Source of the DNA: Pseudomonadota bacterium
Lineage (GTDB): Bacteria; Bdellovibrionota; Bdellovibrionia; Bdellovibrionales; JACTMU01
Direction: 5' to 3'
Assembly (NCBI GenBank): GCA_014584465.1
Contig: JACTMU010000096.1
Location: 1-47,392 of the forward strand
Length of the DNA: 47,392 nt
The translations under genes were made by a program, and so were the position numbers. Below, piece by piece: positions 13,466 to 28,926 of this stretch (positions are counted from its first letter, which is position 1; each line of letters begins with the position of its first letter). The notes beneath the pieces were generated by a model that saw nothing but the letters and a program-made list of their open reading frames with translations, was not told the DNA's origin and made no database searches.

Positions 13466-14428
13466 ATGAAGAGTGAAACTGATTTTGAACCTTTGAGTGG
13501 GAGGGAGTTCCCTCGATTTTCGGGAGTGAAGACCTTTTTTCGACTGCCCATGGCCAATGTCGATCAACATTTTGAGATCGCCCTTTGCGGAGTCCCTTTT
13601 GATGGGGGAACCACCTATCGACCGGGGACAAGATTTGCTCCCTCGCGGGTTCGTGAGCTCTCTTCCTTGGGGCGAGGTTTTCATTGGGGGCGCGATGTTC
13701 ACGTCTTTAAGAGGATCCAAGTTGCAGATGTGGGGGACTGTCCCACGGTTCCCATCGATCTGGTTCAAACCTACAGAAAGATTGAGACCTATTTTGAACA
13801 TCTACTTAAAGCGAAGAAGCGTTTTGTGGCTGTGGGCGGTGACCACTCCATCACCCTTCCCATTCTTCGTGCTTTACGAAAACATTTGGAAGAACCACTG
13901 CAGTTGATTCACTTTGATGCCCACTTGGACACCTATCCTGCAGCCTGGGGGTGCGAATTTCATCATGGTTCTTTTTTGCGTCATGCGGTTCAAGAAGGCC
14001 TTGTGGATCCGAAGCAGACGGTTCAGATCGGTGTTCGTGGGCCTCTGGCATATGGGGACGATCTTGAATTTTCCAAACAGCATGGGATTCGACTTCTGAG
14101 TGTTAAGGATCTTAGAGGCGGAGATCTTGGAAAGCTCATAAAAAAAACATCTCTCTCTTCCACAATGCCGACCTATATTTCTTATGATGTCGACTGTTTG
14201 GATCCAGCCTATGCTCCAGGAACGGGAACTCCTGTGCCAGGAGGTTTGACGACCTATGAAGTTCAGCAGGTGTTTCAAAACCTGGCACTCCAGAATGTGG
14301 TTGGTGGCGACATTGTTGAGGTTTCTCCCCCGTTTGACTCCTCAGACCTCACAACGCTTGCCGCAGTCGACGCTCTCTTTGAGATGCTTGCTCTGATGGC
14401 CGAGCTCCAAAGTTCGTTTAGAAATTGA
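13466..14428 (+). CDS. speB: Agmatinase/arginase-family ureohydrolase
   Basis: Mn2+-dependent ureohydrolase of 320 residues; the family splits agmatine, arginine or related guanidino compounds into urea and an amine. All metal-binding blocks are present: GGDHS, DAHLDTY and SYDVDCLDPAYAPGTGTP. The segment GTPVPGGLTTYE is typical of agmatinases, so putrescine formation from agmatine is the most likely reaction, though guanidinobutyrase or a related enzyme cannot be excluded. ATG 13466 has GGGAGA 7 bases upstream; the open frame extends further to 13403 but without support. Its 3' end overlaps that of the convergent carbonic anhydrase by 11 bp. Confidence 0.85.
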   Translation: MKSETDFEPLSGREFPRFSGVKTFFRLPMANVDQHFEIALCGVPFDGGTTYRPGTRFAPSRVRELSSLGRGFHWGRDVHVFKRIQVADVGDCPTVPIDLVQTYRKIETYFEHLLKAKKRFVAVGGDHSITLPILRALRKHLEEPLQLIHFDAHLDTYPAAWGCEFHHGSFLRHAVQEGLVDPKQTVQIGVRGPLAYGDDLEFSKQHGIRLLSVKDLRGGDLGKLIKKTSLSSTMPTYISYDVDCLDPAYAPGTGTPVPGGLTTYEVQQVFQNLALQNVVGGDIVEVSPPFDSSDLTTLAAVDALFEMLALMAELQSSFRN

Positions 14429-15344
14429 TGGGGGATCGACCGTTGAGAGCCTGAAGGGGACGGTTGTTTCCTGTGTAGTACTTTTGAAATGTTGCAATCT
14501 GTTCCTTTGAGATTTCAATGGGAGTGTTGAGAACATTCCAGTCAACTCCTTCGGAACAAGGAGGAGTGGTGAGAGAGCCCTTGTAGTTATAGTAGGTCAA
14601 CTTGGACGGAAGGAGATCATTCACGTTGAAAGTTCCCAAAGATCGGCTCTTCTCCTTGGATTTGTCGGGAATGTTCTTCCAGAGGTGAGCAATGGACTTG
14701 TTCTCTGTTGCGCCCTCTTTGTAGAGGATGCCAACGACGGCCAGTTTTCCTTTGGAATCCTTGTGGACCAGATGAAGTTCCAAGGGATAGTGTTTGCCAC
14801 TGAGCGTGTGTTCGCTTTGGGAGTGGAAGTGAAATTGAATGAGATCATATCGTGATTTTCCAATGGTCACATAACTTCCGGGATCCACATCAAATTGAAT
14901 TGTATGACCATTGTCGACGGATTTGCCACTCTTTGAACTGTAATGGAATGAGATCTCTCGCCCCATCTTGGGTTTTTTCCACTTAAGGTCAACCGGGGAT
15001 TGACTCTTCCCATGCGAGCATAGGGCATAATCGGGCTTGATGGATCCCCAGGAAGAGGGGCCTCTTTGCCCCTTGTAGTCCCAGTGATGGCTGTCATGAT
15101 TTGATGCAGGACTGGAGGTGGAAGCAGGGGCGCGTTCCACAGATCTGGTTCCGCTCTCTTTTGCATGGTCGTCGGTCTTTTGCATTTCATCGAGGGCGCC
15201 GCTTTTGATGAGAGAGTCCTCATATTGCTCGATTTCTTCCAGTTCCGTCAGATCAAAGGCCTCTTCACTCTCCTTTTTTGAACACCCAGAGAGGGCAATC
15301 GCAATCATGCAAACGCACAGACTCAAGAATTGAATTAGGTTCAT
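14418..15344 (-). CDS. Alpha-carbonic anhydrase lipoprotein
   Basis: Reversible hydration of CO2, here expected on the periplasmic side. The 308-residue protein starts with a signal peptide and lipobox (ALSGC, Cys21), followed by a low-complexity acidic/Ser-rich linker to about residue 84. The alpha-class catalytic domain follows. Zinc ligands His172 and His174 lie in QFHFH and His191 in ELHLVH. The family's SQSPVDL segment and the TTPPCSEGVDW block are intact. The ATG has GGGAG upstream. The convergent neighbour is the agmatinase-family gene. A separate cytoplasmic beta-class enzyme is encoded at 21.8 kb. Confidence 0.93.
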   Translation of the reverse strand: MNLIQFLSLCVCMIAIALSGCSKKESEEAFDLTELEEIEQYEDSLIKSGALDEMQKTDDHAKESGTRSVERAPASTSSPASNHDSHHWDYKGQRGPSSWGSIKPDYALCSHGKSQSPVDLKWKKPKMGREISFHYSSKSGKSVDNGHTIQFDVDPGSYVTIGKSRYDLIQFHFHSQSEHTLSGKHYPLELHLVHKDSKGKLAVVGILYKEGATENKSIAHLWKNIPDKSKEKSRSLGTFNVNDLLPSKLTYYNYKGSLTTPPCSEGVDWNVLNTPIEISKEQIATFQKYYTGNNRPLQALNGRSPINF

Positions 15345-15701
15345 GGCAAACTCCCATCATGATTCAAGTTGACCAAATGGGGAAGGTCCTGACACCGGGA
15401 ACTTCCTGCTTTGGACGGACGCTGGTGGTTTCATTGCTCCCACCACATTTCACATTATAGATCTTCTCGGTAGATTGTATCTTATAGATTATTTTTTTTT
15501 CGAAACGGACTGCCTGTGAGATGATTTGAGGCTTGAATGCCGCGCACAAATTAAAAAAAATCACACATTTCAATTAAGCCTCAGGATTTTTTTAAGATCA
15601 CCGATAGGTGGGTGTTGCTGGGGCACGTGCGGGCAAGTGTCCTATTTTGCAGTGCTTGCACAGTTAGTTTGGCGACTCTAGGTTCAACAGGGGGTTTTAT
15701 G
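15345..15701. other. Divergent intergenic region, alpha-CA / cheW
   Basis: This gap of about 357 bp holds no gene I can support. It must contain the leftward promoter for the carbonic anhydrase and the rightward promoter for the chemosensory operon. The stretch 15440-15600 is AT-rich with several A and T runs. An 8-bp inverted repeat (TGAGGCTT 15527-15534 and AAGCCTCA 15576-15583) is followed by GGATTTTTTT. That arrangement could be a long-loop terminator or attenuator read toward cheW. I saw no convincing FliA-type promoter. Confidence 0.4.
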
Positions 15702-16202
15702 ATGAGCGCAGAAGAGATTCAGGTCGAGGCTAAGAGGGTGGTGGCCAAGGGGCTTGATCGCTATTTGACCTTTTCGGTAGGGAAGGAGGACTTTGCAATT
15801 CCTCTACTTAAGGTGAAGGAGGTCATTGCGGTCCCTGACACAACTCCACTCCCCTACAGTCCTGAATACTTTACAGGAATCATGAACTTGCGTGGACAGG
15901 TGATCTCAGTGATCGACATTCGACGAAAGTTGGGGATTGAGTCAAGAAAATCTGAAGAAGAAAATGCAGTCATCATTCTCGATTTGGATCCACTCTTTAT
16001 TGGAATCGTTGTGGATTCCGTGAACAATGTTCTCTTATTAAATGAAGATGACTTTGGGGACACTCCGGAAATGGAGCACAAGAAAGCTTCAGAATTTCTG
16101 ATAGGAGTCGCAAAGAAAGATGATCGTTTGATTCTTTTGATCGAGATCGAAAAGGTTCTCGACATAGAAGATTTGGTAATGGCACAGAATCATGCCGCTT
16201 AA
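15702..16202 (+). CDS. cheW: CheW-like chemotaxis coupling protein
   Basis: Couples the chemoreceptor to CheA. In 166 residues it shows the CheW SH3-like double barrel pattern: RYLTFSVGKEDFAIPLLKVKEVI, PLPYSPEYFTGIMNLRGQVISVIDIRRKLG and FIGIVVDSVNNVLLL. ATG 15702 was chosen because AGGGGG lies 7 bases upstream; the adjacent ATG at 15699 is only 4 bases from it. It is followed after 31 bp by the heme-type MCP and then by the CheR/CheB fusion, forming a compact chemosensory operon. Confidence 0.93.
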   Translation: MSAEEIQVEAKRVVAKGLDRYLTFSVGKEDFAIPLLKVKEVIAVPDTTPLPYSPEYFTGIMNLRGQVISVIDIRRKLGIESRKSEEENAVIILDLDPLFIGIVVDSVNNVLLLNEDDFGDTPEMEHKKASEFLIGVAKKDDRLILLIEIEKVLDIEDLVMAQNHAA

Positions 16203-16233: not shown

Positions 16234-18129
16234 ATGTTTTCGTGGTATATGCGTATGGGATTGTTCGGAAAGGTTCTACTGCCATTTCTGGTGTTATTAC
16301 CGGTGGGTTTGGGGCTTCCTATCTATTACGTTTTTAACAAAACAAGAAGTAACACAGTTGAATCGGTGGTTCGAAGTGCAAAAATGCAGATCGATCAGTT
16401 CAAGATTCTTCGTGGTTACTACACAAAGAATGTTGTGGGAAAGGTCAAAAGCGCTGGTGCTATGAAGATTGATTACAATCACCATAGCAAAAGTGATACG
16501 ATTCCTCTTCCAGCCACATTCATTCATGACCTCAGTAAGGAGTTCGATGATCAGAATGCGGGAACAAAGCTTCGGCTTTACAGTAACTTTCCATTTCCCA
16601 ATCGAAGGGATCGCAAACTCGATGACTTTCAAAAGAAGGCCATCGAACATCTGATCAAAAACCCTCAAGATCAGTATGTTGAGACCTTCATGGAAAATGG
16701 AAAAGAGCATGTTCGAGTGGGTGTGGCCGACCTCATGGTTGCCGAGGGATGCGTCAGTTGTCACAACAGCCATCCAGAAACTCCCTACAATCAGTGGAAA
16801 CTTGGAGATGTTCGAGGTATTTTGGAAGTCGAAATTCCGATTGCCGATGACATCAAAGCCTCGACGGCCATGATGACCACCGTCGTGGGATTTTCGGGTG
16901 GTGTTGGTGCTGTGATTTTGTGTGTTCTTGTTTTGGTGATGGTCTTTTTTGTTTCGCGACCACTGAAGAGGGCTACACAGAGCCTATTGAGCATGAAGGG
17001 AACGGCGGATGAGACACTCGAAGCAAGTGGTGATCTCAACCAGGCTTCTTCCGAAGTGGCATCCTTAGTGACAGAGCAGGCTTCAGCGATTCAGGAAACT
17101 GTTGCAACCCTTGATGAAATCAATGCAATGGTAAGTCGTGGGGTTGAAGGAGCGGCTCAAACCACCGAGCTTGCTCGTTCGAGCCATCAGGTTGCAAAGC
17201 AAGGGAAAGATGCAGTTCAACAGATGGTCGGTGCGATGGAAGACATCAACAAGAGCAATGCAACGATCATTGGTGAAATCGATCAAAGCAATCAGAGAAT
17301 CTCAGAGATCATTTCTGTGATTACAGAAATTGCAGATAAAACCAAAGTCATCAACGACATCGTGTTTCAAACCAAACTTCTCTCCTTCAACGCGTCTGTA
17401 GAAGCAGCGCGCGCGGGTGAGCATGGTAAGGGTTTTGCGGTTGTGGCCGAAGAGGTCGGAAACTTAGCTCAAATGAGTGGAAATGCGGCCAAAGAGATTG
17501 CCGAGATGTTGGGTTCAAGCATCGACAAGGTCGAGAACATTGTGGATGAGACCAAAGGCAATGTCGCGCGAATGGTGGAGAGCGGAAAATCCAAAGTTGA
17601 CGCGGGTGTTGTTATTGCAAAGAGATGCGGTGACATCTTAGACCAGGTTGTCGACAACGTCACACAAGTCAACGACATGATGGGTGAGATCACGACAGCT
17701 GCAAAAGAGCAAGCCGAGGGGATTAGCAATATTTCAACAGCCATGAACCAACTCGATTCTGCAACTCATCAAAATGCCGCCGTGGCTGAGAAAACTTCCA
17801 GGTACTCTGATCAACTTGCTCGTGAGGCTCGCAAGCTCAAAGACGCGATATTGGCTCTTGAAGCGGATCTTCTTGGTGCAAATCAATCTGTGGGACGAGA
17901 TGATGCCGATGAAGATGATCGCGAAGATGAAGATCAATACCAACCTACATCAAGGGGTGAGAAGGTAGTTGCAATTGGCAAGCCATCTTCCCCATCAGGA
18001 TCGAAGACCGTTCCTAGAAAGACGACCACAGGTTCAAAGCATGTAGGGGCTTCTCCTGCTGCGACTCGAAAAGCCTCTGGAAGTGATTTTGTGCCGGACG
18101 AGGATGATCCCAATTTCGAAGATGTATAA
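16234..18129 (+). CDS. Chemoreceptor (MCP) with a c-type heme Tll0287/DUF3365-like sensor
   Basis: Membrane chemoreceptor of 631 residues. Transmembrane helix 1 spans about 9-33. The periplasmic region (about 40-210) carries a CXXCH heme motif, C173-V-S-C-H177, in the arrangement VGVADLMVAEGCVSCHN...WKLGDVRGILEV that is typical of the Tll0287-like (DUF3365) sensor. Transmembrane helix 2 spans about 213-240. The cytoplasmic signalling domain is complete, with the hairpin-tip region FQTKLLSFNASVEAARAGEHGKGFAVVAEEV. The C terminus is a charged and Ser/Thr-rich tail, possibly flexible. AGGGAGAG precedes the ATG. Covalent heme suggests sensing of redox state, O2, NO or CO; the ligand is not known. 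The hybrid kinase at 26.2 kb has the same sensor. Confidence 0.93.
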   Translation: MFSWYMRMGLFGKVLLPFLVLLPVGLGLPIYYVFNKTRSNTVESVVRSAKMQIDQFKILRGYYTKNVVGKVKSAGAMKIDYNHHSKSDTIPLPATFIHDLSKEFDDQNAGTKLRLYSNFPFPNRRDRKLDDFQKKAIEHLIKNPQDQYVETFMENGKEHVRVGVADLMVAEGCVSCHNSHPETPYNQWKLGDVRGILEVEIPIADDIKASTAMMTTVVGFSGGVGAVILCVLVLVMVFFVSRPLKRATQSLLSMKGTADETLEASGDLNQASSEVASLVTEQASAIQETVATLDEINAMVSRGVEGAAQTTELARSSHQVAKQGKDAVQQMVGAMEDINKSNATIIGEIDQSNQRISEIISVITEIADKTKVINDIVFQTKLLSFNASVEAARAGEHGKGFAVVAEEVGNLAQMSGNAAKEIAEMLGSSIDKVENIVDETKGNVARMVESGKSKVDAGVVIAKRCGDILDQVVDNVTQVNDMMGEITTAAKEQAEGISNISTAMNQLDSATHQNAAVAEKTSRYSDQLAREARKLKDAILALEADLLGANQSVGRDDADEDDREDEDQYQPTSRGEKVVAIGKPSSPSGSKTVPRKTTTGSKHVGASPAATRKASGSDFVPDEDDPNFEDV

Positions 18130-18276: not shown

Positions 18277-21200
18277 ATGGCGATGTGGGCGCAGGAGAAC
18301 CAAATATTAGAAGAAGGTGAGAACGAAGAAATGATCGATCCAAAAGAGGATCGAATCATTTGGAACATCGCTGCGGACATCACGACACTGACAGGAATTC
18401 TATTTGGGAAAAAGCACACGTCTCTGATTCGAAATCGACTGACCAAGCGCATTCGTGAATTGGGCCTTAACTCCGTGACGGATTATGAAATCTATCTGGA
18501 GAAGAATCGCAAAGTTGAAACGAGTGTTTTGATTTCACTGCTTACAACCAACCATACATTTTTCTTTCGTGAGTTTGACCAGTTCACCTACATGAGAGAT
18601 CACTCATTGCCCCATGTGGTGGCAGAACTTCGAAAAGAAAAAAGAAAGACCCTTCGAGTGTGGTCGGCGGCTTGCAGTTTCGGGCAGGAAGTCTATTCAC
18701 TGGCCATGTTTCTGGACTACCACCTCAAGAAGCTTGCGCCAGAGATGGATTTTCGAATTGTGGGAAGTGACATCAGCGAAGAGGCTGTTCAGAAAGCCAA
18801 AGATGGAGTTTATCGATGGTCAGATCTTCGAAAAACTCCGGCACTCTATCTTGCGAACCATTGGACCAAAGTCTCTGGTCAGAAGAATGAGATGGTGCGT
18901 GCGAACGATCATCTTCGGTCACGGTGTGAGTTTGAGTTGATCAATCTACAGACCCTTTCTGATCAGAGTAGCAAGGCAAAGTTTGATTACATTTTATGTC
19001 GAAATGTTTTTATCTACTTTTCAAGAGAGAACATTTGCGAGATCTCTTCGAAATTGTCCAAACGCCTGGAACCTCACGGGCTCTTCTTTGTAGGTCTCTC
19101 AGAGAGCCTTCAGGGGATGAATCTACCTCTTGAGCGAGTTGGAAAGTCGACCTATCGGCTCGTCGGACAGGCAGGTAAGGCCACAAAACCTGTTGCGGAC
19201 GCAACGATGCCGCCTGTCGAGAAAAGGCAAGCGATCATTCGTGTTTTGTGTGTTGATGACTCTGAGACGGTCTTGGGACTCTTGAAAAACATACTCAGCG
19301 AAAAGGCCGGATTCAAGATTGTGGGGACAGCTAAAGATGGTCTTGAGGCCACTGAGTTTCTTAAGAATAATGAGGTGGATGTCGTAACATTGGACATTCA
19401 TATGCCCAATCAGAATGGTGTGGAGTTCTTGGAAAGTCATAAGGGTAAAAAAATACCGTCAGTGGTTATTGTGAGTTCGGTCTCACGAGATGATGCAAAA
19501 CTTGCCATCAAAGCCCTCGAGTTTGGTGCGGATGACTACGTGGAAAAGCCCACACTTAAAAACTTCGCTTTGAAAGGAGATGAGATTCGGGCCAAAGTTA
19601 AATCATCCTTTCTTGCAAAGCAGTCTCATGAGACCATTCGTCACGATTTAGACGAGAAATATAGGGTCAAGGTGCAAATCACCGAGCCGGAGAAGAAACT
19701 TCGAGTGATTGTCGGAAAGCCCGGTGATCGAGTTAAGTATGAGTGGGTTGTAAGTCAACTCGAAGGACCACAGCCTGCCACGGTTGTTCTCATCGAAGGG
19801 TTGGCCAATTTGGATGAGGCCTTTGCGGAATCTCTTGGTGGAAAATCGAAGATGCCGGTTCGTCTTTTGGGTGACGAAGTCAGTCAACTTTCAAGTAGCA
19901 CGGTCTATCTTGGTCAGCTTGACGACAAGTCGTATCAACGTTTAGGGGCTTTGCATCGTTCTAGAGTCTGTCAAATTCTTCTAAGTCCACTTTCAAAAAA
20001 CTCAGAAAAGACGATCCTTTCACTTAAAGGAGCCTACATTTTGGCCGATGAGCAGGCCTCCAGAAACAGCATTGGCAGTGGTATCGATTTTCAAAAGGAT
20101 GTAGGTGATGTGGCTCCTTACACTTCCTTGGCGTATGAATCTGAAAAGTACTTCGAGAATGTGGCTGACAGTGCTGAAAAAGAGAAGGAAGCAAAAGACA
20201 ACATTGACGCATTCGTCAAGAGCATGCCTCAATCTGCAAATGAGAGCCTTGGGAAACCTCGCAAAGCTCCAGTGGATTCCGCAGCATCTCATGATAAGAT
20301 TGGGGTTCAATACTTTGTCATTGGGTCTAAGGACCTGTTGGTCTGCTTTTATGAACCTCTGTCGAAGTTTGCAAAACCATTTCTCTTAAAGGGTAGAGAT
20401 TCAAAGACGATTCTGTCTGAGGTTGAGTCGAGTTGTAAGAGCTTCCGATCCAATCCGAACTTGATCTCCAAACAGGTGGAGATGAAGGTCATAAAGGGAA
20501 GGGATGTAGGTTCAATCGATTTTAGTAGTGCACTTAAGAATCAGATTCTTTTAAAGGGTGACTTTCGAGGAAAGACGGATCGAATTGATGCCTATGTTTA
20601 TACTGATTCAGGACGGATTCGAGTTTCAAATGTGATCCAAGAGCCGGTGAAACCTCCAGCTGTAAGGCCCTTGACGGGTGAGCTCGGACGGTTTTCTACG
20701 GAGAAATCATCGCCAAGGCCGGAACACGTTCACGCTCCTGCACCGGCCAAGGTTACAGTGGAACGAAATGGGGATCAGAAGATACGAGTCTTGGTCGTGG
20801 ACGATTCCGAACCGATTCGGATTCTCCTAAAGAAGATGTTGCGAATGGATCCGCGAATGGATGTGGTGGGTGAGGCGTCCAAACCTTCGGAAGTTGATGG
20901 TCTCATTCAATCTCTCAATCCCGATGTTATGACCTTGGATATTCACATGCCGGAAATGACGGGAACTCAACTGCTTGAGAAAATCTATCCCAAATACAAG
21001 ATTCCTACGATCATCGTGACCTCTCTTTCAGCCGAAGAGGGAAATGATGTGCTTCGAGCTCTCGAGATTGGAGCGTTCGACTACATACAGAAACCATCCT
21101 TCGATAAGATGAAGGAGGTGGCAATCAAACTTTGTGAGCAGGTGCATCTAGCCTCTCTTCAGCCTCGTCAGAAGCGCATGGCTGTCGGAAGTCGAGAAAG

Positions 21201-21816
21201 TCATGTGTTTGATCCTCGTCGTCCGATTGTGATTGGATCCTCAACGGGAGGGGTCGAGGCATTGAGAGATCTCATCGCCCTCTTTCCCAAAGAGATACCT
21301 CCTGTGCTCATAGTGCAGCACATACCTGCATTCTTCTCAAAGGCCTTTGCCGATCGACTCAACGAACTCTATCCATTTGAAATCAAGGAGGCCAAAACGG
21401 GAGATATTCTCGTTCGAAATCGCATCTTGATTGCTCCTGGCGGTCGTCAGATGTATGTGCAAAATCGAAATGGTCTTTCCGAAACCTTGGTAGATGAGGG
21501 TCCGGGAGATCTTCTTCATAAACCGTCGGTGGATCTTTTGTTTCAGTCGGTGGCCAAGGATTTGGGAAAGCGAGCCATTGGGATCATTCTCACTGGAATG
21601 GGGTCCGACGGAGCCCAGGGGCTCAAAACGATGAGAGAGGCTGGTTGCTACACCATAGGGCAAAGTGAGCAGAGTTGTGTGGTCTATGGTATGCCCAAAG
21701 CAGCGAAGCTCATGGGGGCCGTCTGCAAAGAGGTTCCTCTTGAACAGATACCACGAGTTATTTCTGAGGCGTCAAGATCATCCGATAAGAAGAAGGGTTC
21801 CAATGAGGCAGCTTAG
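18277..21816 (+). CDS. Giant CheR-REC-(CheB-like)-(CheD-like)-REC-CheB fusion
   Basis: One 1179-residue polypeptide combining chemoreceptor methyltransferase and methylesterase. Residues 25-295 are a CheR domain (NHTFFFRE, VWSAACSFGQEVYSLAM, GSDISEEA, CRNVFIYF). Residues 318-440 are a receiver (phospho-Asp373 in TLDIHMP). Residues 473-590 look like a degenerate CheB fold without the Ser/His/Asp triad. Residues 672-785 resemble a degenerate CheD (VIGSKDLLVCFYEP where CheD has the catalytic Cys; then GRIRV). Residues 834-955 are a second receiver (Asp888 in TLDIHMP). Residues 980-1160 are an intact CheB methylesterase (Ser989 in GSSTGG, His1015 in VQHI, Asp1111 in GMGSDGA). ATG 18277 has a modest GGGA; ATG 18331 is an alternative. 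The CheR and final CheB assignments are firm; the two middle domains are inference. Confidence 0.92.
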   Translation: MAMWAQENQILEEGENEEMIDPKEDRIIWNIAADITTLTGILFGKKHTSLIRNRLTKRIRELGLNSVTDYEIYLEKNRKVETSVLISLLTTNHTFFFREFDQFTYMRDHSLPHVVAELRKEKRKTLRVWSAACSFGQEVYSLAMFLDYHLKKLAPEMDFRIVGSDISEEAVQKAKDGVYRWSDLRKTPALYLANHWTKVSGQKNEMVRANDHLRSRCEFELINLQTLSDQSSKAKFDYILCRNVFIYFSRENICEISSKLSKRLEPHGLFFVGLSESLQGMNLPLERVGKSTYRLVGQAGKATKPVADATMPPVEKRQAIIRVLCVDDSETVLGLLKNILSEKAGFKIVGTAKDGLEATEFLKNNEVDVVTLDIHMPNQNGVEFLESHKGKKIPSVVIVSSVSRDDAKLAIKALEFGADDYVEKPTLKNFALKGDEIRAKVKSSFLAKQSHETIRHDLDEKYRVKVQITEPEKKLRVIVGKPGDRVKYEWVVSQLEGPQPATVVLIEGLANLDEAFAESLGGKSKMPVRLLGDEVSQLSSSTVYLGQLDDKSYQRLGALHRSRVCQILLSPLSKNSEKTILSLKGAYILADEQASRNSIGSGIDFQKDVGDVAPYTSLAYESEKYFENVADSAEKEKEAKDNIDAFVKSMPQSANESLGKPRKAPVDSAASHDKIGVQYFVIGSKDLLVCFYEPLSKFAKPFLLKGRDSKTILSEVESSCKSFRSNPNLISKQVEMKVIKGRDVGSIDFSSALKNQILLKGDFRGKTDRIDAYVYTDSGRIRVSNVIQEPVKPPAVRPLTGELGRFSTEKSSPRPEHVHAPAPAKVTVERNGDQKIRVLVVDDSEPIRILLKKMLRMDPRMDVVGEASKPSEVDGLIQSLNPDVMTLDIHMPEMTGTQLLEKIYPKYKIPTIIVTSLSAEEGNDVLRALEIGAFDYIQKPSFDKMKEVAIKLCEQVHLASLQPRQKRMAVGSRESHVFDPRRPIVIGSSTGGVEALRDLIALFPKEIPPVLIVQHIPAFFSKAFADRLNELYPFEIKEAKTGDILVRNRILIAPGGRQMYVQNRNGLSETLVDEGPGDLLHKPSVDLLFQSVAKDLGKRAIGIILTGMGSDGAQGLKTMREAGCYTIGQSEQSCVVYGMPKAAKLMGAVCKEVPLEQIPRVISEASRSSDKKKGSNEAA

Positions 21817-22463
21817 GGATTTATCATTAACTCTTCGCTGATCAGGCGGAATTCGTCAAATTGTTCGTGATAGGCGTAGACATCGATGTGAGCAATGTCA
21901 AACCACCATCCGTGAATCTGCAGAGATCCTCGATTCAGAAACTTTTGCACAAGTGGATAGCTCTTAAGGTTTTTGATCTGCTGAAGCACATTGTACTGAG
22001 AGAGAAGGTTGTGAGGTGCAATGTTACTAGGAGGTCTTTGTAGCGCCTTGAGATTTTCAAACGCGGGAACTCCATGTCCGAGCCACGACTGTAGATGAGG
22101 AAGAGAGATCTTTTCACGGCCATCGTACAGGGCCTTCATTGCACCACATTCGGAATGGCCACAGACGATGATGTCACGAACCCCAAGCATTTCCACGGCA
22201 AACTCAAGAGCGGCAACCTCAGATTCATCACTCATTGAGATCCCCTGATTTCCGCAGGGTGGGAAGAGGTTTCCAGGATTGCGAATGACAAAGAGGTCAC
22301 CAGGATCTGTTGAGGCAAAGAGATTGGGGGCCACACGACTGTCCGAGCAGGTGATAAAGAGGGTGTCGGGTGATTGGCCCAGTGCCAAATGGGCAAACTT
22401 CTCTTGATATTCAGGCGAAAGCTTCTTTTTGAACTCAATGATACCTTGGATCAGTTTCTTCAA
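21813..22463 (-). CDS. Beta-class carbonic anhydrase
   Basis: Cytoplasmic zinc enzyme interconverting CO2 and bicarbonate, 216 residues. Zinc ligands are Cys39 in TCSDSRV, with its catalytic Asp/Arg pair, and His103 and Cys106 in CGHSECGA. No signal peptide is present. The start is a TTG overlapping the stop of the upstream GNAT gene as TTGA, with GAGGAG 8 bases before it, so the two are translationally coupled. Its 3' end overlaps the convergent CheR/CheB fusion gene by 4 bp. Confidence 0.92.
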   Translation of the reverse strand: MKKLIQGIIEFKKKLSPEYQEKFAHLALGQSPDTLFITCSDSRVAPNLFASTDPGDLFVIRNPGNLFPPCGNQGISMSDESEVAALEFAVEMLGVRDIIVCGHSECGAMKALYDGREKISLPHLQSWLGHGVPAFENLKALQRPPSNIAPHNLLSQYNVLQQIKNLKSYPLVQKFLNRGSLQIHGWWFDIAHIDVYAYHEQFDEFRLISEELMINP

Positions 22464-26003: not shown

Positions 26004-26172
26004 TAGTGTCTGGCTCGAAACCTGCTTTCGAGCGAATCGCCATAAGTTTTCCTTATACCGAGGCGGGGGGCGACGAAGGGCTAGCCCGAGGCGCTAACTC
26101 GAGGAGGCTCAGCGAAGGTATAAGGAAAACTTATGGTGAATTCGCCGAAATGAGGTTTTGCGCCAGACACTA
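26004..26172. mobile_element. MITE-like 169-bp imperfect palindrome
   Basis: Arms 26004-26059 and 26117-26172 are 56-bp inverted repeats with roughly ten differences, around a 57-bp unpaired centre. The outer 11 bases (TAGTGTCTGGC) and the inner 18 (CCATAAGTTTTCCTTATA) match exactly. The TA at each edge suggests TA target duplication, as in Tc1/mariner or IS630-type MITEs. No transposase is inside. The right end lies 12 bp before the kinase start codon, so the element forms most of that gene's leader. Confidence 0.85.
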
Positions 26173-26184
26173 ACTAAAGGGATC

Positions 26185-28926
26185 ATGAGCTGGTTTTTAG
26201 GCTTGCTTGAAAGGCATTTGAACATTGTCATTGTGATTCTCATCGCAATGAGCTTTCTGTTCATTATTGGACCCTTGGAGTTGCTCTCGACTCGATTGGT
26301 TGAGAATATTGCGGTTTCAGATGCCAAACTCTATGCTGAAGCAGTTGCACAGTTTCGAACCATCTACTCCAGTGAAATTGTAAAAAAGGCCCAAGATTTT
26401 GGCATGAAGATCTCCCATGATGTTCACGAAGATCCTCAAGCAATTCCACTACCTGCAACATTGAGCATACTTCTTGGGAAGCGAATCGGGGAGAGTGCCC
26501 ATGGTGGAGTGACCAAGTTGGTGAGCCCCTATCCCTTTCCTTTTCGCGAAGGGACAGGAGGACTCAGGGATTCCTTTGAAGTGGAGGCATGGAACTATCT
26601 TCAGAAGACACCCATGGGATCGTATCATCGATTTGAGATGATTGATGAGAAGATGGTCTTGCGTTATGCGACCGCCGATGTCATGGCGAGCTCCTGTGTT
26701 GAATGTCACAATCAACATCCATTGTCTCCAAAGCGGGATTGGAAGGTAGGGGATGTTCGGGGAATCTTAGAGGTCATCCGCCCAGTGGATGTCGTACTGG
26801 CACAGGCTAAATCAGAAATATTTGGAACTCAACTTTTCATTACAGTGCTTACACTTTTGTTTGTCGTCTTGTTGGTCATTGCCGTTCGTCACCTTAAGGA
26901 GTTGAAGAATGAATTGGTAAAAACTGCCAAGACGGCTCTTGCTGGGAGTGCGGCCAAGACCGAGTTTTTGGCAAATATGAGTCATGAGATTCGGACACCT
27001 ATGAACTCCATTGTGGGAATGGCGGAACTTCTCTCTGAAACGAGATTGGATGAGACTCAAGAAGGGTACCTTAAGGGACTGCAAACGGCCAGTGACTCTC
27101 TTCTGGATCTGGTCAATGACGTCTTGGATGTATCTAAAATTGAAGCAGGATGTCTCGAACTTGAAAACGTCAACTTCAATTTGAGTGAAGTTCTAGATTC
27201 GATCATTGAGATCATGGGGCCTAAGGCGTTTCAAAAAAAGATTGAGTTCATCGTGGCATGTGATCCCAAAGTCAATCCAAACTTGGTAGGAGATCCGACT
27301 CGATTGCGACAGATTCTGATCAATCTTGTGGGCAATGCGATCAAATTTACAATGCATGGTGAAGTTGTTCTTAAGGTCGAACTTACAGGTGGAAACAGTT
27401 CAAAAGTTCATCTTTGCTTTTCTGTTTTGGATACGGGCGTAGGCATCAGCTTTGATGCAATTCAAAAGATCTTTCAAAAGTTCACACAGGCAGAGAGTTC
27501 AACGACTCGTAAATTTGGTGGCACAGGGTTAGGACTTAACATTTCTCAGATGCTGGTCAAGATGATGGGGGGCCAAATCAAAGTGACCAGCGAGGAGGGA
27601 AAGGGAAGTCGATTCTACTTTGAGCTTGTTCTACCCACTCAGAATGTCCGCGCTTCTACGTCTGTCCATCAGAAGCAATTTAGAAAAAAGTGCATCTTGA
27701 TTATTGAGGACAATGAGAGTGCAAGAAAGATGGTTCATGCTGAGCTCACTGCCAGAGGAGCCGATGTGGTGGAGGCTGAAGATGGCTTGAGTGGGATCAA
27801 GCTTGCGCAGAGGGCCGCCCTCAACAATAAGTCATTCGACCTTGTCTTGACGGATCATCAACTGCCTGATTTGGATTCTGCAGAAATTGTGGAACGAATT
27901 CACGATGTCTCTGGCGAGAAAAAGCCAACAATTGTCATTATGGGCAGCATCAATGTGAAGATTGAATTCTTGGCTCAGTGTTCTAAAGCGAAGTCCGATG
28001 GTTTTTTGCCAAAACCCATCAAGGCAGCCCAGCTTCTGGAGGTTGTGACTCAGTTACTAATGCCAGACCAAGTGGAGTTTGCGGCCTCATTAGAAAGTGC
28101 AGAGAATGCTCTCTTAGTTTTTGATCCTGGGACTCAAGTTGATTTCAACTTAAAGGAGATTGTAGATCTATGTGCAGAGAGGTCCGTCTTGGTTCAAAGT
28201 TTCGATGAACTTATGGATCCAAAGCTGCCAATCTCGACGTGCGCCATGGTGGTCAATGTGGCGAATATGGATTGCGAGTTCTGTAAGTGGTTTCTCAGGA
28301 TCAGAGAAAACGGGTGGTCGGTTCCAATCTTGTTTGTATTTCCAGATGGGCAAGAAATTCAAAGATTGGCGATTGGTTGGGAAAGTGAGATTCAGTTTGT
28401 CAATGAAGAGATCACTTATGAGATCTTCTATAGGCATCTCAGGAAGGTTGTCTTGAAAGGGCTCTCTTGTCTGAATGATCGGAAAGTCGTGTCTCAATCA
28501 AGTCCTTCTCGACTGTTGATCGTAGATGACTGCGAGGACAATCGAAACATGCTTCAAATCTTCTTGAAGAATCTTGATTGCAAGATTGAGTTCGCATGTG
28601 ATGGAATTGAAGCCTTGCAGAAGTATCATGAGAGTAGGTTTGATTTGATCCTCATGGATCTTCAACTTCCGAAAAAGAGTGGTTATGAGGTCGTAACGAC
28701 CATCCGTGCATTTGAAAAGGAGGGTGGACTGGCGAGAACTCCGATCGTAGCACTCTCTGGATTTGCAATGAAGGAAGAGGTTCAAAGAGCCCTTGATGTG
28801 GGCTGTGATGTTCATCTTTCAAAACCCATTAAGAAGCAACAGCTTCTGGAAGTGATAACTCAGTACACATCTCAACCCATTGAGGTCTCTAAAGATGCTG
28901 ATGCTTCAGGAAAGATGGCCAGTTAG
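26185..28926 (+). CDS. Hybrid histidine kinase with c-type heme Tll0287/DUF3365-like sensor
   Basis: Membrane sensor kinase of 913 residues. Transmembrane helix 1 is at about 12-33. The periplasmic sensor (40-205) carries C171-V-E-C-H175 in the same context as the MCP at 16.2 kb. Transmembrane helix 2 is at about 214-234. A HisKA domain follows (His267 in MSHEIRTPMN), then the HATPase (NAIKFT, DTGVGI, GGTGLGL). Three receiver-like modules come next: the first has Asp in LTDHQLPD, the second is degenerate (VVNVANMDCEF where the Asp strand should be), and the third is complete (DD pocket, LMDLQLPKKSGYE, SKP). The open frame extends to a TTG at 26158 inside the MITE-like element; ATG 26185 with AAAGGGA is the better start. 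Likely senses redox state or a gaseous ligand. The output partner is unknown. Confidence 0.93.
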   Translation: MSWFLGLLERHLNIVIVILIAMSFLFIIGPLELLSTRLVENIAVSDAKLYAEAVAQFRTIYSSEIVKKAQDFGMKISHDVHEDPQAIPLPATLSILLGKRIGESAHGGVTKLVSPYPFPFREGTGGLRDSFEVEAWNYLQKTPMGSYHRFEMIDEKMVLRYATADVMASSCVECHNQHPLSPKRDWKVGDVRGILEVIRPVDVVLAQAKSEIFGTQLFITVLTLLFVVLLVIAVRHLKELKNELVKTAKTALAGSAAKTEFLANMSHEIRTPMNSIVGMAELLSETRLDETQEGYLKGLQTASDSLLDLVNDVLDVSKIEAGCLELENVNFNLSEVLDSIIEIMGPKAFQKKIEFIVACDPKVNPNLVGDPTRLRQILINLVGNAIKFTMHGEVVLKVELTGGNSSKVHLCFSVLDTGVGISFDAIQKIFQKFTQAESSTTRKFGGTGLGLNISQMLVKMMGGQIKVTSEEGKGSRFYFELVLPTQNVRASTSVHQKQFRKKCILIIEDNESARKMVHAELTARGADVVEAEDGLSGIKLAQRAALNNKSFDLVLTDHQLPDLDSAEIVERIHDVSGEKKPTIVIMGSINVKIEFLAQCSKAKSDGFLPKPIKAAQLLEVVTQLLMPDQVEFAASLESAENALLVFDPGTQVDFNLKEIVDLCAERSVLVQSFDELMDPKLPISTCAMVVNVANMDCEFCKWFLRIRENGWSVPILFVFPDGQEIQRLAIGWESEIQFVNEEITYEIFYRHLRKVVLKGLSCLNDRKVVSQSSPSRLLIVDDCEDNRNMLQIFLKNLDCKIEFACDGIEALQKYHESRFDLILMDLQLPKKSGYEVVTTIRAFEKEGGLARTPIVALSGFAMKEEVQRALDVGCDVHLSKPIKKQQLLEVITQYTSQPIEVSKDADASGKMAS

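Follow-up and report, generated by a model that had tools for sequence, protein, structure and literature searches.

What is the role of a single chain that bears the motifs of CheR at one end and those of CheB at the other, and what lies between the two? The question is raised by an open reading frame in the window, i.e. the whole stretch of DNA analysed here (47,392 nucleotides; contig JACTMU010000096.1 of assembly GCA_014584465.1, order Bdellovibrionales). Positions 18277-21816 (+) form one uninterrupted frame encoding a protein of 1179 aa with the domain order CheR-REC1-pseudoCheB-pseudoCheD-REC2-CheB. Taking sequence and predicted models together, we read this protein as a chemoreceptor adaptation enzyme in which a two-gene module found across the Bdellovibrionota has been fused; its CheR end should methylate receptors and its CheB end should demethylate or deamidate them. 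Its parts are as follows.

18277..21816, + strand: whole protein, single ORF, 1179 aa
18370..19146, + strand: CheR methyltransferase, aa 32-290, helical N-terminal domain and SAM domain, key residues intact
19243..19554, + strand: REC1, CheB-type receiver, aa 323-426, phospho-acceptor D373 (Pfam, tree)
19612..20172, + strand: pseudo-CheB domain X, aa 446-632, catalytic triad lost
20173..20289, + strand: linker, aa 633-671, where gene A stops and gene B starts in relatives
20290..20640, + strand: pseudo-CheD domain Y, about aa 672-788, catalytic Cys/His not conserved
20782..21126, + strand: REC2, CheB-type receiver, aa 836-950, phospho-acceptor D888
21226..21759, + strand: CheB methylesterase, aa 984-1161, triad S989, H1015, D1111 intact

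Live and dead domains

Pfam recognised the helical N-terminal domain of CheR at aa 32-77 and its SAM domain at aa 92-290 (3e-44), two Response_reg matches (the first at aa 323-426; 3e-45 for the pair) and CheB_methylest at aa 984-1161 (6e-60), and gave no match above the curated cut-off at aa ~427-835. The last third (aa 836-1161) scored as a full CheB against NCBIfam PRK00742 (452.7 bits, cut-off 293). The CheR motifs NHTFFFRE and CRNVFIYF and the CheB motifs GSSTGG, VQHIP and GMGSDGA (near aa 987, 1013 and 1107 respectively) are present, and the block TLDIHMP occurs twice, at aa 371 and aa 886, in agreement with the two identical receiver blocks noticed by the initial annotation. That annotation had also called the terminal CheR and CheB motifs intact, which is borne out by Pfam, NCBIfam and the residues conserved in relatives.

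Residue conservation was scored in 48 gene A proteins (CheR-REC-pseudoCheB) and 41 gene B proteins (pseudoCheD-REC-CheB). The CheR residues R98, D165, R242, N243 and Y247 are invariant or nearly so in the 48 relatives, and R98, the SAM motif, D165 and CRNV-IYF, taken from Pfam and these relatives, identify the domain as a CheR. Both REC1 and REC2 have the Asp pair, phospho-Asp, Thr/Ser and Lys of classical receivers; D327, D328, D373 and K424 of REC1 are each found in 48/48 relatives, and in REC2 the Asp residues are kept in 40-41 of 41 gene B proteins and the Lys in 38/38. The triad of CheB is Ser164-His190-Asp286 in E. coli numbering, and amongst gene B proteins with residues at these positions it is retained almost without exception (Ser 37/37, His 37/38, Asp 37/37).

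The region after REC1 (domain X) was aligned from 27-28 divergent sequences and modelled with AlphaFold2 (pLDDT 88.9, pTM 0.84), giving a predicted model with the fold of the CheB catalytic domain. When this was compared with all PDB chains the eight best matches were all CheB (3sft at 7.3e-7, 1chd at 9.9e-7, 6ymz, and 1a2o at 1.1e-4 amongst them), with unrelated folds following from 7e-3. With a second aligner (VIA), four CheB entries had Z scores of 15.2-16.2, the alignments covering 148-165 of the 187 residues, and a fifth scored 10.8; unrelated folds stood at 10.1 or below. Profile-profile comparison of X with CheB (hhalign) reached probability 90 and P 1.6e-6, and a search with the X profile matched CheB domains outside the X family with E values down to 4e-5 and, at weaker scores, the active CheB encoded by partner genes. 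Hmmscan of isolated X matched CheB at no better than E 0.16.

Domain Y, the region before REC2, was aligned from 23 relatives and modelled with a pLDDT of 80.1, its core lying mostly at 85-96, and AlphaFold2 together with structure search placed a CheD fold within aa 645-800, the predicted model agreeing with CheD in the core only. The T. maritima CheD (2f9z_C, 3.7e-4) was the sole match of Y below 1e-3 amongst all PDB chains, the amidase NTAN1 coming next; VIA gave Z 9.9 over 115 residues for CheD and no more than 6.0 for the rows after NTAN1. Profile-profile comparison of Y with CheD reached probability 77 and P 2.1e-5, and hmmscan of isolated Y returned no match. Neither the X-CheB nor the Y-CheD score was reached by any of 150 column-shuffled profiles (0/150). 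Searching PDB chains with sequence HMMs of X and Y yielded noise only; both relationships are visible only by profile-profile comparison and fold. Alternative assignments of X as CheR-, CheD- or receiver-like, and of Y as CheB-, CheR- or receiver-like, were rejected, all six cross-pairings having a probability below 1.4%.

From inspection by eye the initial annotation had taken aa 473-590 as CheB-like and aa 672-785 as CheD-like with the catalytic Cys changed, a reading against which unrelated folds across aa 473-785 would have told. Structure and profiles bore out both calls with CheB and CheD folds, the former at aa 446-632 (AlphaFold2, structure search, profile-profile) and the latter at aa ~672-788, without GSC (structure, profiles, residues).

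Both domains have lost their catalytic residues. The triad positions of X hold Ser in 0/48, His in 0/48 and Asp in 3/48 gene A proteins, and X is not classed as a methylesterase because it is without the Ser-His-Asp triad. In CheD the nucleophile is the Cys of GSC; this motif is absent from Y in all 41 gene B proteins, which have no conserved catalytic Cys/His there, several Y domains being without any Cys. The pattern, by sequence and predicted models, is that either side of the module has a live enzyme and a dead one. At its C-terminal end X has kept P-x-T-S-F (P in 47/48, S in 48/48), and D-x-x-F has persisted in the linker (D 40/48, F 41/48); the conservation of P-x-T-S-F in the pseudo-CheB points to constraint on the dead domains.

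Split, fused and reduced forms and their origin

The relatives are nearly all encoded by two overlapping genes, A of about 580-690 aa and B of about 440-540 aa, with an overlap of mostly 4 bases (ATGA, GTGA or similar); two overlapping genes are the rule and the single-chain form the exception. The X family (rows with E <1e-10) is present in 99/369 genomes of the phylum and 28/141 of the order. The initial annotation had proposed surveying the fusion across genomes; a full fusion of the same architecture (1107 aa) does recur in another family of the same class (L219), but nearly all other relatives are split, and since the surrounding families are split we infer that the L219 fusion is probably independent of that in the window. 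A reduced form, an 808-aa CheR-REC-REC-CheB without X and Y, occurs in G059, and its receivers fall with REC1 and REC2 respectively in the receiver tree. Gene A with the pseudo-CheB retained is also found without a neighbouring gene B (L155, L157, L118, L221). A DNA-pattern search of genome contigs added a relative in Bdellovibrionales bacterium GWA1_52_35 (L152) and a receiver match only in L153.

Several side observations concern these forms. At six loci (L053, L057, L058, L059, L113, L114) A and B lie in one frame, a stop and 0-4 codons apart, where stop read-through could yield a fused protein. Elsewhere, CheD-REC-CheB proteins with intact CheD and degenerate CheB (e.g. L120 1922-3481 and L121 3184-4737) form frames of 522-551 aa in about 20 genomes and are common in one genus of the order.

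It is improbable that the single chain in the window is a sequencing or assembly artefact joining two genes. Such an error would sit easily with the split state of nearly all relatives and with the loci in which one wrong base could join the genes (L053, L057, L058, L059 and L114, same frame, stop and 0-2 codons), and the genomes compared include no near relative of the source genome. The same full architecture in another family, however, argues against an artefact, including the assembly join of cheR and cheB that the initial annotation had itself considered, as does the junction, a long hydrophilic linker within one open frame; the module stands even if the join is an error.

In a receiver tree of 82 sequences, resting on 130 columns only and with its fine structure unresolved, all REC1 domains grouped together (SH-aLRT 86) and adjoined a clade of REC2 and the receivers of CheD-REC-CheB proteins (SH-aLRT 97), both clades lying inside the CheB-type receivers and separate from those resembling CheY. 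This grouping led us to reject the reading of REC1 as a fused CheY. Because REC1 groups with CheB-type receivers, the tree supports an ancient duplication of REC-CheB, one copy of which would have joined CheR and is now apparently dead. Duplication and decay had been suggested by the initial annotation, and the CheB-type REC1 and the dead CheB in X agree with it; the suggestion does not extend to the pseudo-CheD, which does not come from this duplication and resembles what decay would leave of the CheD that begins a CheD-REC-CheB protein, standing in front of the live copy. The source genome has a cheR next to an intact CheD-REC-CheB (C103, L070), an arrangement from which the second half of the protein could plausibly have descended. 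To judge by the CheD-REC-CheB proteins with degenerate CheB, dead CheB domains have arisen or spread more than once.

Operon neighbours and the receptor tail

Upstream of the fused gene lie the following features.

15612..16202, + strand: CheW (Pfam CheW, 6.5e-35), a conserved neighbour
16234..18129, + strand: MCP with a Tll0287-like sensor domain (Pfam MCPsignal 2.9e-43, Tll0287-like 3e-17)
18106..18129, + strand: MCP C-terminal peptide DPNFEDV-COOH and stop, a putative tether for adaptation enzymes

The usual operon order in relatives is cheA-cheW-mcp-A-B. In the source genome cheA is not beside the gene, which counts against the explanation preferred below; a CheA on another contig (C100, L154), with its own cheW, is the best match to the CheA of the L152 operon.

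MCPs adjoining gene A end in ...P-S-x-x-D-P-R-F-E-D-V/I/F, and a conserved tail with the consensus DP(R/N/K)F(E/K)(D/E)(V/I/F)-COOH stands beside the module phylum-wide (L166-L185, L205-L224). Searched as a DNA pattern, the tail was found at 20 places in 19/141 genomes, with 2 places for the reversed control; 18/20 matches were MCP ends, 15 of which lay directly before cheR or gene A. It occurred in 17/28 genomes with X vs 2/113 without X (Fisher 9e-13, a P value that overstates independence since the genomes are related). A loose C-terminal F-E-x-Phi pattern was unspecific in the source genome. The receptor of G059, whose partner enzyme is without X and Y, ends in a degenerate tail, NDPGFGE, a single case in line with the positioning and docking roles proposed below for REC1-X and Y.

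The receptor pentapeptide is described as xZxxZ, where Z is F, W or Y, so that the second and fifth of the five C-terminal residues are aromatic (PMC7390727). The window tail NFEDV, with F at position 2 and V at position 5, does not fit this, another point against the preferred explanation. Like NWETF-type pentapeptides, the tail has an aromatic residue at position 2, acidic residues and a place at the C-terminus after a variable linker; unlike them, it mostly has V/I rather than an aromatic residue at position 5, and a conserved DP before it.

Other features of the neighbourhood and of related loci may be recorded here. The MCP of L070 ends in a different tail, DGWERL, in a locus (13689-16162) with an intact 539-aa CheD-REC-CheB and a classical cheR, and a second MCP of the source genome (L046, C93) ends in DRFEKL, of similar aromatic-Glu type, and the fused enzyme may act on this receptor too. 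A stand-alone receiver lies directly 3' of the fused gene in L219 (5028-5456), and similar small receivers near the module in several relatives may be the output CheY. In the window, the MCP at 16234-18129 shares its Tll0287-like sensor domain with a hybrid histidine kinase 8 kb away (26158-28926); both domains carry C-x-x-C-H, a possible site for heme c, and one signal may thus feed two different outputs. The chemosensory genes are flanked by putative alpha-type and beta-type carbonic anhydrases, identified by eye (14418-15344 and 21813-22463 respectively, both on the - strand).

Possible mechanism and known systems

Most likely, though at no better than roughly even chances, methylation and demethylation would both be under the control of CheA phosphorylation, with docking or regulatory roles for the dead domains; that CheA would drive the receivers is suggested by the operon and the CheB-type kinship of REC1 and REC2. 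The initial annotation had likewise proposed that one CheA could drive both receivers and gate the opposing activities, and that the decayed copy could be a scaffold. The module would dock on the receptor via the C-terminal tail and CheA would phosphorylate both receivers. REC1 and the pseudo-CheB would keep the closed/open switch of CheB, such that phosphorylation of REC1 would change how CheR is held at the receptor, and REC2 would open the active CheB. For E. coli CheB, modelling gives a pentapeptide site only when the protein is phosphorylated and open (PMC8609364), and from this model and the tail data we infer that REC1-X may position CheR without catalysis of its own, gated by phosphorylation, and that the pseudo-CheD may be a non-catalytic docking surface. 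The fusion would fix the opposing activities at a 1:1 ratio on the same receptor. In its full form, with REC1 and the dead CheB as a phosphorylation-gated clamp positioning CheR on the tail, opposite REC2-CheB, and one phosphate source setting both directions phylum-wide, this explanation is put forward tentatively, at somewhat below even chances. Two of the forms described above count against the preferred explanation: the genomes in which gene A stands with no gene B beside it indicate that the coupling is not universal, and the G059 fusion, having neither dead domain, that these are not always needed.

The G059 fusion bears on other readings as well. The pseudo-CheB and pseudo-CheD, which stand at the facing ends of the two overlapping genes, might bind each other and so hold both enzymes together, the fusion replacing this contact; a covalently linked enzyme that has dispensed with both domains is what would be expected. 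Both full fusions (window and L219) nevertheless retain X and Y, and gene A carries its pseudo-CheB at the loci where no gene B adjoins it, and we regard such a docking pair as rather unlikely. The loss of X and Y in G059 would equally suit dead domains that are passive leftovers of duplication and persist just as spacers, as would the large divergence of the other X domains (13-25% identity to that in the window). The high-confidence fold prediction obtained despite the divergence of the 28 sequences used, the remaining P-x-T-S-F and D-x-x-F motifs and the presence of the X family in 99 of the 369 genomes speak against mere spacers, a reading that we find doubtful. The conserved C-terminal motif of X might also hint that one of the dead domains has gained a new catalytic activity, but neither X nor Y has a conserved set of acid, base and nucleophile beyond P and S, making this very improbable.

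If the preferred explanation holds, the module may give the cell control over sensor tuning in both directions and not just one. In E. coli adaptation, CheR is without a receiver and CheB is controlled by phosphorylation. Roughly one in four of the phylum's sampled genomes has a CheR joined to a complete receiver of CheB type and to a dead CheB domain, which makes feedback control of methylation, an old question, directly testable. The module is also a clean example of a signalling circuit in which two pseudoenzymes have been conserved alongside the active enzymes they resemble; it can be compared in naturally split, fused and reduced versions, and comes with a candidate dedicated receptor tail. 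Open-access text yielded no description of CheR/CheB/CheD fusions, dead CheB or Bdellovibrio chemotaxis proteins of this kind, a result that does not prove absence.

Compared with known systems, the C-terminal part of the protein fits the E. coli/Salmonella CheB (PDB 1A2O) fully, as REC plus methylesterase domain. REC1-X has the same order and the same predicted fold as that CheB, but is without the triad Ser, His and Asp and is joined to CheR. Y has the fold of the T. maritima CheD (PDB 2F9Z chain C) and is placed before REC-CheB as in L070, but differs in having no GSC and no conserved Cys/His, in its 14-15% identity in structural alignments and in being joined to REC-CheB. The CheD-REC-CheB proteins (L070, L074, L077) share the order of the second half of the protein, and REC2 groups with their receivers; their CheD, however, is intact and CheR has a classical gene of its own there. 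Hybrids of the CheB-CheR-PAS-kinase type, such as one of 1281 aa in the source genome (L071), likewise have CheB and CheR in one chain, but with CheB first, then CheR and a C-terminal receiver, the reverse of the order seen here; such hybrids have no receiver before CheB, extra signalling parts and no pseudo-domains. The protein is not one of them, as CheR comes first, CheB last, and Pfam finds no kinase. A 651-aa protein (L078) is, like ours, a CheR-receiver-CheB in one chain, but it has one receiver, which forms a long branch outside the REC1 clade of the receiver tree, a CheB that matches the active one (3e-29) and no CheD-like domain.
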